Source: Propionispira arboris (lineage in GTDB: Bacteria; Bacillota; Negativicutes; Selenomonadales; Selenomonadaceae). From it: 64,000 bases of DNA. The notes under the pieces were generated by a model. The model was not told the origin of the DNA. It was given only the letters and a program-made list of their open reading frames with translations, and searched no databases. Position 1 is the first letter of the stretch. Each line of letters opens with the position of its first letter. Positions 22,519-25,245 of the stretch are shown here, in pieces. The stretch spans positions 248,001 to 312,000 of the forward strand of contig NZ_FNZK01000001.1 in the NCBI RefSeq assembly GCF_900109225.1, in the 5' to 3' direction. A program made the translations under genes and the position numbers.

Positions 22519-22545
22519 GGGTAGTGGCATTAAGTTGGTTAAACC
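22519..22545 (+). promoter_or_regulatory. Degenerate LicT-type RAT, decayed copy leader
   Basis: Homologous to the intact RAT at 25427-25453 but with two substitutions at positions conserved in the others: GTGGC for GTGAC and GGTTAAACC for GGCTAAACC. A stem CCTTCGAAAA/TTTTTGAAGG overlaps its 3' end, then a six-codon leader frame (ATG 22580, MQNSLW, stop at 22598-22600) and a T-rich hairpin ending near 22637. Confidence 0.6.
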
Positions 22546-22690
22546 TTCGAAAAGAAAATTTTTGAAGGAGTGTTGAAAAATGCAAAATAGTCTGTGGTGA
22601 AACGGAAAAGCAATGGAAATTTGTTTTTGTCGTTTTTTTATTTCCCAAAAGCGAGACTAAAAATAATCAAAGTTTAAGGAGATGCAAAGG

Positions 22691-22750
22691 ATGCTCCTTA
22701 AAAAAATATTAAATAATATGGAAGGTATCGTGCAGAAAAAATTAAGGTGA
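22691..22750 (+). pseudogene. licT antiterminator reduced to 19 codons by internal deletions
   Basis: Reads LLKKILNNMEGIVQKKLR and stop. The first nine codons match the start of the intact licT (25602). GGAAGGTATCGTGCAGAAAAA matches its codons near residue 230, and ATTAAGGTGAGATTTCC matches its stop and 3' flank. Thus two deletions removed about 660 and 110 bases. The joints fall in short A/T-rich identities (AAT and AAAAA), which fits slippage between short direct repeats. No function can remain. Confidence 0.88.
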
Positions 22751-22821
22751 GATTTCCAAGCTGTGCTTTTTGCCGGCTTGTTTTCTAATACAAAATAAAG
22801 AGTAATGAAAAAGTTTTAATT

Positions 22822-22874
22822 GGATGGTGACATTAAGTTGGCCAAACCTTCGAAATTCATTTAAATTTTGGAGG
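22822..22874 (+). promoter_or_regulatory. RAT overlapping an SD-sequestering stem, first PTS gene
   Basis: GGATGGTGACATTAAGTTGG at 22822-22841 followed by CCAAACC to 22848 fits the BglG/LicT RAT pattern. CCTTCGAAATT (22847-22857), which overlaps the RAT 3' end, can pair over 11 positions (two G-U) with AATTTTGGAGG (22864-22874). The latter contains the SD of the PTS gene, whose ATG is at 22883. RAT and SD-blocking stem are therefore mutually exclusive. Confidence 0.7.
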
Positions 22875-22882
22875 AATTATTT

Positions 22883-24793
22883 ATGAAAAAGTATACAGAA
22901 CTAGCAAAGTCCATCGTGGAAAATGTCGGTGGAAAAGACAATGTTATATCGTTAGCACACTGCTATACGAGGCTTCGTTTCAAATTGCGTGATGAAAAAA
23001 AAGCAGCAACCGATGTATTGAAAAATACAGAAGGCGTTGTTACGGTCGTGCAAAGTGGAGGCCAGTATCAGGTTGTTATCGGCAATGAAGTGGGTGATGT
23101 TTATGATGAAATCGTAAAATCGCAAGGAATTGCCGGTGCAAGCAGTGGGACTGAAAATGCTGAGCCGGAACAAAAAATGAATGTGATTGATCGCTTCATT
23201 GATATTGTGTCCGGCATTTTCACGCCTGTTTTGGGGATGCTGGCAGCCAGCGGGATGATTAAAGGATTCACTGCCCTGTTTGTGGCTTTTGGTTTTATTG
23301 AGGCGGCGGGTGGTACCTATCAGATTTTGCAAACAATCGGTGATGGCTTCTTTTATTTTTTACCGATCTTTTTGGGTTTAACAGCAGCTAGAAAATTCAA
23401 AATGAATGAATTTTCTGGCATGGCACTTGGTGCGGCATTGGTATATCCGTCAATTAGTGCAATTATCAAAGGGGAACCACTTTATCATTTATTTACCGGG
23501 ACCCTGTTTGCTTCTTCAGTACAAATGGAGTTTTTAGGAATTCCAGTGATTTTAATGAATTATGCATCAAGCGTTATTCCCATTATTGCATCCGTATATT
23601 TTGGTGCCAAGGTAGAACGTTTCTTGCTGAAAACGATTCCGACGATGGTTAAAGGGTTCATGGTGCCATTTTTTACGATTTTAATCGTTATTCCATTGAC
23701 GTTTATCATCATTGGTCCTGTATCAACTTGGGCAGGACAATTGGTAGGTTTCGTAGCAAATGGTATTTTCCAGTTGAGCCCTGTTTTAGCAGGTTTATTT
23801 ATTGGGGCATTTTGGCAGGTCTTTGTTATTTTTGGTATGCACTGGGGGCTTGTACCAATTATGATAAATAATATTTCGGTTCAAGGGTTTGATCCGGTTG
23901 TAGTTACGTATTTTGCGGCATCTTTTGCCCAAACTGGTGTTGTTTTGGCTATTTTGTTGAAGACAAAAGATAAGAAACTCAAATCACTTTGTGTGCCAGC
24001 GTTTATTTCAGGGATCTTTGGTGTTACCGAACCAGCAATTTATGGGGTAACACTGCCACGAAAAAAAATGTTTATCATCAGCTGTATTGGTGCTTCGATC
24101 GGTGGTGGCTTGATTGCTTTTTGGGGTATTAAACTATATATGTTTGGTGGTTTAGGCGTTTTTGGGTATCCATGTTTTGTTGATCCGGTATCGCATGATA
24201 TCAGTGGTATGAAATTTGGCATGATTGCTTCTTTGGCAGCTTTTCTTATTGGCTTTGGATTAGCGCTTCCATTCTACCATGATGAGAAGGTGGCTGAAAA
24301 AATTTCGGCTGCTGATAAAGACGGTAATAAAATTTTGGAAAAAGAAATATTGATTAGTCCTTTGATTGGGGAAGTGAAATCGTTGGATGAAGTGCCAGAT
24401 GAAGCATTTTCTTCTGGGGTATTAGGCAAAGGGGTTGCGATTCTTCCTTCCGAAGGTAGAGTTATTGCGCCGGCAGATGGAACGGTAGCGACACTTTTCC
24501 CAACTAGTCATGCTTTGGGCTTGATAACAGATAAAGGCACGGAAATTCTGATTCATATTGGCATTGATACTGTAAAATTGAATGGGCAGTATTTTCAAGC
24601 CAAGGTCAAACAAGGCGATCGGGTAAAATGCGGTCAGGTTTTAGTTGAGTTTGATTTGAAAAAAATTCAAGCAGCTGGATACGCTGTGATTACGCCTGTA
24701 CTGATTACGAATTTTCAGCAGTACTTGGATATTATTATATCGAAAAAGGATACGATTCATTATGGGGAAAACCTCATTACGGTTATTAATTAA
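22883..24793 (+). CDS. bglP: Beta-glucoside PTS transporter EIIBCA (first copy)
   Basis: A 636-residue phosphotransferase permease. EIIB comes first with phosphorylated Cys27 in [15 protein letters not shown] spans about residues 100-460 with conserved [17 protein letters not shown]-terminal EIIA has the active His558 in [15 protein letters not shown]. Order B-C-A matches beta-glucoside permeases of the BglF/BglP type. It phosphorylates aryl- or alkyl-beta-glucosides during import. ATG 22883 is the true start; upstream in-frame codons lie inside the RAT. It is highly similar to the second copy (26579), so the region is a tandem duplication. Its own licT and bglA neighbours are destroyed. Confidence 0.94.
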
Positions 24794-24897
24794 GCAGTCT
24801 GATCAGATTGCTTGGCAGTCTGCGATCGTGTATTTTGTTTTTCAGCAGTGATAGCTTATTATGATGAGCTTGTTTTTTACAATTGAATACCAAGGAA

Positions 24898-24981
24898 GGA
24901 TTGTGACTGGTAATACAGGCAAAACCTAGATTTATGTTGGCTGATTAAAAATTGATTTAGCCAACATAAATCTGGTTTTTT
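24898..24981 (+). promoter_or_regulatory. Classical RAT-terminator pair between PTS gene and bglA remnant
   Basis: GGATTGTGACTGGTAATACA at 24898-24917 followed by GGCAAAACC to 24926 is a near-consensus LicT RAT. AACCTAGATTTATGTTGGCT (24923-24942), which overlaps it, pairs with AGCCAACATAAATCTGGTT (24959-24977), followed by a run of seven T. Bound antiterminator would prevent the terminator and let transcription reach bglA. That gene is now only a remnant. Confidence 0.85.
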
Positions 24982-25036
24982 TGTTTTTATAGGAGGTGGG
25001 TAAGAAAACTGAAAGGGCAAAGGTACGTGATTTTTA

Positions 25037-25139
25037 ATGAATAAATTTCCTGAAGCATTTTTATGGGGCAGTGTGATAGCCGCTAATTAAGGATTCGCTT
25101 TTCTGGTACAATGACTATCATTGCCAGTAATAGAATAAA
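25037..25139 (+). pseudogene. bglA (GH1 6-phospho-beta-glucosidase) remnant
   Basis: NKFPEAFLWGSVIAAN then TAA at 25088-25090 matches the N-terminus of GH1 6-phospho-beta-glucosidases (compare [14 protein letters not shown] at 33047). Directly behind it, TTTTCTGGTACAATGACTAT and ATCATTGCCAGTAAT resemble the codons for the C-terminal [10 protein letters not shown] segment (near 34408-34433). The middle of about 440 codons is gone. With the licT remnant it shows the same pattern: both ends kept, interior lost. Confidence 0.75.
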
Positions 25140-25199
25140 GTTGGACGCAGATTAGCGATTCGATGTATAATTCCGAGTTTGACACTTGAGAAAGAAAAA

Positions 25200-25245
25200 A
25201 CGATTAGAACCCTTGAAAATAAAGAGATCTAATCGCTTTTTTTTT
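25200..25245 (+). terminator. Terminator closing the decayed operon copy
   Basis: CGATTAGA (25201-25208) and TCTAATCG (25228-25235) with a nine-T tract after one C. Confidence 0.65.

Follow-up and report, generated by a model that had tools for sequence, protein, structure and literature searches.

A decayed duplicate of a licT-permease operon in Propionispira arboris and a RAT element that apparently acts on the Shine-Dalgarno sequence

Background

Proteins of the BglG/LicT family are the textbook example of protein-controlled transcription antitermination. The Bgl/Sac family has been reviewed as a 'stabilizing antiterminator', in which the ribonucleic antiterminator (RAT) partly overlaps the terminator (PMC4347634), and the classical combination of RAT and terminator is described, in the excerpts cited, for Streptococcus mutans bglP (PMC1489936), Enterococcus faecalis nagY (PMC9981650; PMC12502629) and Clostridium acetobutylicum bglGTH (PMC12628678). 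According to a passage in one of these papers, which cites Gordon 2015, most putative Bacillus subtilis RATs do not overlap terminators (PMC12502629), and a section of a review on Clostridioides difficile places a bglG motif upstream of bglG, with a possible riboswitch function that was not investigated (PMC11477304). Here we describe a stretch of 64,000 nucleotides (nt), hereafter the window, from the 4.26 Mb genome of Propionispira arboris (contig NZ_FNZK01000001.1, positions 248,001 to 312,000), in which an operon of licT and a phosphotransferase system (PTS) permease gene is present in one intact and one decayed copy, and in which the RAT ahead of each permease is joined to a hairpin that buries the Shine-Dalgarno (SD) sequence (RAT-SD).

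The locus resembles the BglG/LicT/SacY systems (Escherichia coli bgl, B. subtilis sacXY, S. mutans bglP, E. faecalis nagY and C. acetobutylicum bglGTH) in the CAT_RBD + PRD family of its regulator, in its RAT layout and in the order of licT and permease. It differs from them in that the RAT would compete with an SD-burying hairpin and not with a terminator, and in that the terminator of the licT leaders lies apart, behind a leader open reading frame (ORF). In the leader-peptide attenuators tnaC and trpL, translation of a short ORF decides the fate of a downstream intrinsic terminator. The licT leaders likewise have a short ORF with an SD running into a terminator, but here the switch would be the initiation of the leader, set by a protein at the leader SD, and not the place at which the ribosome stalls. 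As in TRAP, described in the cited part of a review as having transcriptional and translational outlets (PMC4347634), and as in the translational T-boxes and riboswitches covered in part by another (PMC11477304), competing RNA structures would decide translation; unlike in all of these, the effector would belong to the BglG family, as an RNA-binding activator under PTS control.

Results and discussion

The RAT-SD element of the permease genes

A preliminary description of this DNA named a 'RAT/SD element', drew no consequence from it and left the classical RAT and terminator at 24898 unmentioned. The element is present and is the most important thing at the locus. The RAT, GGATGGTGACATTAAGTTGGCCAAACC, precedes both permease genes (PTS1 in the decayed copy and PTS2 in the intact one), and it is followed in each by a hairpin with the SD as its 3' arm (22847-22874 and 26543-26570). 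The fold of this hairpin has a free energy of -9.5 kcal/mol, and of -4.4 kcal/mol without the two C's that are also needed by the RAT; RAT pairing and SD-burying hairpin thus have the same two C's in common. A RAT overlapping a terminator was found at 24898, and no such overlap at 22822, 26518 and 25427. The element kept ahead of the permease is not a RAT/terminator. At gathering level Rfam has no match within the window. The model RF03530 (bglG-cis-reg), likewise a cis element of bglG/LicT operons, matches weakly at the classical RAT only (24886-24996, 31.2 bits, below the gathering score of 80); run against 22400-26700 it matched no RAT-SD site at E up to 10.

In our proposal the CCUUC of the free RNA would pair with the permease SD, GGAGG, and keep the permease silent. 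With substrate present, active LicT would bind the RAT, whose final two C's would be kept within the RAT stem; the SD hairpin would then lose its two strongest pairs, and the freed SD would allow the permease to be translated. We infer the binding of LicT and, because LicT must switch its permease on, the direction of its effect.

Distribution of the RAT-SD form

Within the class, 25 of 380 genomes contain the RAT core with up to two mismatches, at 61 sites in all; a backwards-pattern control gave a single match. A looser exact pattern gave at least 117 stretches in named genomes, and the matches listed include Enterococcus, Vagococcus, Clostridium, Clostridioides, Lachnospiraceae, Erysipelotrichaceae, Paenibacillus, Selenomonas, Propionispora, Brachyspira and Pasteurella. 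Judged by sequence, the RAT-SD form recurs widely in the Bacillota, and in Brachyspira and a few others.

Among 146 distinct contexts, a mechanical scan assigned an SD and a start codon right behind the RAT to 137, a terminator-like structure to four and neither to five. By eye, two of the 137 are classical terminator leaders wrongly counted (L098 and L188), and L055 (site 1501) and L170 are permease sites that were given a wrong start. The nine contexts outside the SD class include two of the five assigned to neither kind, which by eye have a different stem over an SD (L137 and L192), a leader that has the hairpin and lacks a start codon (L077) and a probable chance match (L119). The spacing from SD to start codon is 7-8 nt in 100 of the 137 sites. 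Downstream of them lie 99 PTS permeases, 14 porin-like genes resembling the window gene at 28539-29957, 21 short ORFs, of which 18 are licT leaders, and three others, among which sits the 49-amino-acid leader of L018. Of 97 named loci, 84 contain a LicT-like ORF, which in most cases ends a short distance ahead of the RAT.

Tests of the two RNA structures

The predicted probability that the SD is unpaired has a median of 0.01 and a mean of 0.05 in 132 contexts, and is below 0.3 in 125 of them. With the ten leading bases of the 5' arm shuffled, the mean rose to 0.41 (below 0.3 in 34), and 103 control gene starts with GGAGG and without a RAT had a median of 0.47 (below 0.3 in 32). Pairing outside the fixed core, at positions 6-9, scored 2.94 over 113 distinct arm pairs, against 2.24 (standard deviation 0.08) with the 3' arms swapped, and none of 5000 swaps was as high; the misclassed and doubtful scan rows remained in this all-arm swap and in the SD statistics. 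Restricting the test to a single site for each of 34 labels (50 draws of 400 swaps; the labels come from the titles of L084-L163 plus the window, with L164-L200 and genomes without names left out) gave 2.72 against 2.07, again with no swap as high. For the hairpin core (positions 1-5), pairing hardly exceeds chance, if at all (36 of 2000 swaps as high; median P 0.11 with one site per label), a weak signal that is expected because the SD hardly varies.

Covariation was counted in an alignment of 40 of 56 sites, hand-picked, so that its figures lean upward; the 16 sites left out include poor pairers in that register (L093, L099, L111, L121, L122, L141, L158 and L161). In this alignment 43 cells of the SD hairpin had changed on both sides, compared with 19 when shuffled, and slid versions of the hairpin had lower pairing and covariation scores. 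The RAT pairs in 99.6% of the cells, and its pair 5-22 covaries, being found as G-C, A-U, G-U and C-G. As the search pattern fixes many RAT positions, the invariance of the RAT in the alignment is built in; the hairpin bases after the CC were unselected. The shared CC pairs account for a median of 5.1 of the 8.1 kcal/mol of the SD hairpin. Because two structures with the same CC both covary, we read the element as a switch, of which selection on both structures would be the mark.

The leader ORF ahead of licT

Ahead of licT, the same RAT-SD faces a short leader ORF. We compiled 22 leaders by hand, 19 of them from the 20 of an earlier listing (L098, which is classical, was left out) together with the ghost leader of the decayed copy, L057 and L077; several of the 22 are closely related. 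A start codon is in range in 21 of the 22, at 7-8 nt from the SD in 18 of these 21, and in 19 of the 21 the ORF reaches the 5' arm of a separate intrinsic terminator. In 13 leaders (L020, L062, L063, L065, L066, L068-L073, L075 and L104) the ORF always has ten codons and ends 18-19 nt into the arm, with peptides that differ, and the other leaders range from one to over 40 codons. In L076 the leader ORF is nothing but GTG TAA; the SD lies 8 nt ahead of it and a strong terminator follows 4 nt behind, so that it is possibly a minimal leader.

In the three leaders that were folded whole (L020, L070 and L075), the RAT, the SD hairpin and the terminator are separate, so that LicT at the RAT could not compete with the leader terminator directly. 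A ribosome on the leader ORF would be the simplest link between RAT and terminator. At the head of the intact operon, LicT would let ribosomes translate the leader ORF, and ribosomes on the leader would keep the terminator from forming, so that licT and the permease get transcribed; leader translation and antitermination are again what we infer. The best reading of sequences and folding models is that LicT would activate translation, directly at the permease and via the leader peptide at licT.

Duplication and decay of the operon

Two homologous units lie in tandem, at 22448-24790 and 25356-28486 (ends approximate), each with the order promoter, leader, licT, RAT and permease (Table 1). The homology ends at the end of the permease gene, and the remnant of bglA that follows therefore lies outside the unit. 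The intact LicT carries a CAT RNA-binding domain (CAT_RBD, E 2.3e-21) and a PRD (E 3e-36). The operon was duplicated and one copy decayed: a homologous unit with gene remnants is found in independent assemblies. The same ghost layout is present in the same-genus relative Propionispira raffinosivorans (DSM 20765), with 99.2% identity over 17.7 kb, which rules out an assembly collapse of two full operons.

Several claims of the preliminary description concern this copy. Its licT had been described as cut to 19 codons joined from three parts, and the alignment to the intact gene gives exactly this, nine, eight and two codons followed by TGA. Two deletions shaped the remnant. Of the short A-rich identities proposed for their joints, one exists (AAAAAT, six bases), and the other joint shares a single base. 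The first RAT (RAT1) was said to have lost two conserved positions; relative to copy 2 these are A-to-G and C-to-T. The two positions carry A and C at all 61 sites of the class genomes, an invariance partly built in by a search pattern that itself contains both bases. The permease was rightly called intact and very similar to the second copy, with 576 of 636 amino acids identical, and its RAT is letter-for-letter that of PTS2.

The promoter-licT-permease unit would have duplicated within the Propionispira lineage. PTS1 and PTS2 group as sisters in a 19-row protein tree (support 99/98), adjoining the permeases of G059 and G128, genomes from another family. Duplication is favoured because of this sister relationship, and two separate acquisitions of the permeases are disfavoured. 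The upstream copy would then have lost most of licT and its leader RAT would have decayed, with the permease staying under purifying selection. By the Nei-Gojobori method the two permeases differ by a dS of 0.53 and a dN of 0.049 (synonymous and nonsynonymous divergence), a ratio of 0.093 that also spans the time before the loss of licT. The dS is 0.13-0.35 in the first 150 codons (22883-23332 and 26579-27028) and 0.29-1.73 beyond, possibly from gene conversion at the 5' end.

Comparison with P. raffinosivorans gives 9 substitutions in 22400-22882. Six of them are within the unit (22448-22882), and one of these six is a further change in RAT1, carried by the sister at another conserved base (window position 22524). 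The licT remnant is free of changes, as is the stretch between 22821 and the start codon of PTS1, and 501 intergenic bases of the intact copy that could be compared show none either; PTS1 has two differences, both silent, a number too small to decide the matter. Drift thus affects RAT1 and the sequence around it, and spares the permease and the RAT of the permease. Elsewhere in the same comparison, a GH3 gene (34462-36933) has 27 substitutions, against 0 to 3 in each of the five genes ahead of it, with changes spaced three bases apart around 35082-35103, which looks like local recombination with a diverged allele.

Selection likely retains a second permease under the control of LicT, as the preliminary description proposed. 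The retention of the gene amid decay of its copy is supported by the low dN/dS, by the silent differences from the sister and by the unchanged stretch ahead of the start codon, and action of the one remaining LicT on PTS1 in trans, by which it would serve both permeases, is plausible because the two permease RATs are identical. LicT-controlled transcription of PTS1 is doubtful, because the ghost copy has a damaged leader RAT together with a terminator that still folds; translational control of PTS1 is the better supported. A promoter scan has no promoter-like site within 22690-22880, and a 9-of-12 site ahead of PTS2 (26462-26490) has no counterpart at the matching position ahead of PTS1. The same scan gave 17 sites against 15.7 in shuffles, no excess, and was not used as evidence. 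Transcription of PTS1 needs read-through or another start.

PTS1 could instead be a young pseudogene, with a dead leader RAT and an intact terminator, hardly expressed and with too little time to decay. The six substitutions upstream of it against none in the intergenic bases of copy 2 agree with this, as do its 14 derived residues, compared with six in PTS2, at sites where both outgroups agree; the gene may also be on its way out. We nevertheless regard the pseudogene as unlikely, in view of the open frame, the catalytic motifs that are kept, the low dN/dS, the silent sister differences and the unchanged RAT-SD. In our preferred reading, with the permease retained, the locus is a natural experiment, in which the translational switch and its gene were kept and the leader RAT and regulator decayed.

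Downstream of PTS2 lies a gene at 28539-29957 that we name porin-like, having found no Pfam match. As its homologues in L019, L020, L058, L062 and L063 have their own RAT-SD, LicT may control an outer-membrane pore jointly with the permease.

The bglA remnant and the classical RAT

Between the two units lies what remains of bglA. That it has collapsed to its ends, as first described, is roughly correct, with 17 codons (25037-25090) in place of 16 at the 5' end and, at the 3' end, about 13 recognisable codons (about 25092-25131), split by a frame change, in place of some ten; the rows L010 and L011, out of frame or strand, were not used in this comparison. Its assignment to the ghost operon was mistaken. 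In the relative G059 the gene order is classical RAT, bglA, RAT-SD, licT, RAT-SD, permease, porin and esterase; in a second relative, G040, it is classical RAT, bglA, licT, RAT-SD, porin, a nucleoside-hydrolase-like gene, RAT-SD, permease and esterase. Since bglA precedes licT in both, synteny rules it out as the tail gene of the ghost, and the dead gene would be the head of the intact operon. A GH1 gene elsewhere in the genome (L015, G000:C29:19654-21032) has two overlapping matches in different frames and is perhaps another decayed beta-glucosidase.

The classical RAT and its terminator (24898 to about 24985) belong to the bglA remnant. A terminator stands behind each of seven distinct RATs of CAGGC/CGGGC form (24898, two each in L025 and L026, and one each in L046 and L047). 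The GTTGG form mostly accompanies an SD, with exceptions, and both forms are present in the window.

Table 1. Features of the two licT-permease units and of the bglA remnant (window coordinates)
Feature	Position	Strand	Basis
Promoter-like site, ghost copy (TTGATA-17-TAGTAT)	22469-22497	+	Homologous to promoter-like site of copy 2; promoter scan, with hits no more frequent than in shuffles
Damaged leader RAT (RAT1), ghost copy	22519-22545	+	Two changes at invariant positions; another change in sister
SD-burying hairpin (22544-22568) and leader ORF MQNSLW* (22580-22600), ghost copy	22544-22600	+	Fold, -9.6 kcal/mol; ORF
Intrinsic terminator behind leader ORF, ghost copy	22600-22640	+	Fold, -12.0 kcal/mol; T run
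Ghost licT, 19 codons out of three parts	22691-22750	+	Pieces align to intact licT
Intact RAT of RAT-SD switch, PTS1	22822-22848	+	Identical to 26518-26544; RAT pairing covaries in relatives
SD-burying hairpin, PTS1 (SD GGAGG 22870-22874; CC 22847-22848 common with RAT)	22847-22874	+	Fold; covariation
PTS1, EIIBCA permease, intact	22883-24793	+	Pfam EIIB, EIIC, EIIA; dN/dS; EIIB Cys and EIIA His motifs kept
Classical RAT (24898-24926) overlapping intrinsic terminator	24898-24985 (end approximate)	+	Fold; Rfam RF03530, 31.2 bits (gathering score 80)
Ghost bglA (GH1), first 17 and about last 13 codons	25037-25131	+	Head gene of intact operon by synteny
Terminator downstream of ghost bglA	25201-25245	+	Fold, -19.5 kcal/mol; T run
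Promoter-like site, intact copy (TTGACA-17-TAATAT)	25377-25405	+	Promoter scan, same caution as ghost site
Intact leader: RAT 25427-25453, SD hairpin 25452-25476, ORF MKNSLK* 25489-25509, terminator about 25508-25549	25427-25549	+	Folds; ORF
licT, intact, CAT_RBD and PRD domains	25602-26438	+	Pfam
RAT-SD switch, PTS2: RAT 26518-26544, hairpin 26543-26570	26518-26570	+	Fold
PTS2, EIIBCA permease	26579-28489	+	Pfam; comparison with PTS1

Weighing of the explanations

Taken as a whole, a decayed duplicate combined with a LicT-responsive translational switch and a leader-peptide route is the best explanation of the locus, and we consider it probable. A number of observations count against it. The overlap of RAT and SD hairpin is two bases, and for release of the SD either more is needed than LicT holding the CC, or a residual stem (about -3 to -4.5 kcal/mol) has to open. 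With RAT1 damaged and the ghost terminator still folding, the explanation gives no account of the transcription of PTS1. Two leader ORFs stop short of the terminator arm, with 13 nt missing in L055 and 4 nt in L076, and L077 lacks a start codon within range; a random ORF would moreover often enter the arm, which makes the overlap alone weak evidence. Some RATs of GTTGG type are not of the SD type and have a terminator (L101 and L106 in the scan, L098 and L188 by eye), and the tails behind the window SD hairpins, AATTATTTAT and CTTTATTTAT, are T-rich, without a clean T run, and are listed by a loose terminator scan.

The last two of these observations would also fit classical LicT antitermination throughout, in which RATs and terminators compete and the hairpin that covers the SD is either incidental or terminates weakly, as the characterised systems work in the excerpts cited above and as the window RAT at 24898 does. 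We find this improbable, given the SD and start codon at a spacing of 7-8 nt in most sites and a stretch behind the hairpin that is A-rich in many species. In the leaders folded whole, moreover, the real terminator has no base in common with the RAT, and the conserved partner in the hairpin is the SD itself, with compensatory changes beside it. An action of the RAT-SD on mRNA stability or processing, with LicT binding altering access for a nuclease such as RNase III and translation secondary, finds precedent in the cleavage by RNase III within the shared RAT/terminator stem reported for NagY and in the other roles suggested for RATs without terminators (both in excerpts of PMC12502629), but is very improbable, as it leaves unexplained the compensatory changes and the SD as hairpin partner at a fixed distance from the start codon.

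Conclusions

The translational switch of this locus would be one case of a wider rule, which on balance we favour, if with a little more reserve than the explanation of the locus itself. BglG-family proteins would be translational activators across much of the Bacillota and in some other phyla, opening SD-burying hairpins next to a GTTGG-type RAT ahead of genes for permeases and porins. Their own gene would, in Selenomonas-like and related bacteria, be switched on via a leader peptide, the translation of which disarms a terminator. RAT-SD is apparently a widespread and undescribed way for an antiterminator family to turn on translation and not transcription. In a search of the open-licence literature we recognised no paper as describing SD control by a BglG-family protein; Gordon et al. 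2015 reportedly treats RATs beyond antitermination and may hold part of the idea.

If this is true, annotation that seeks terminators misses RAT-SD sites, as happens here with the Rfam model. Within a single operon, the two forms of RAT would serve two distinct output machineries, and translation would be what much of the BglG/LicT family controls.

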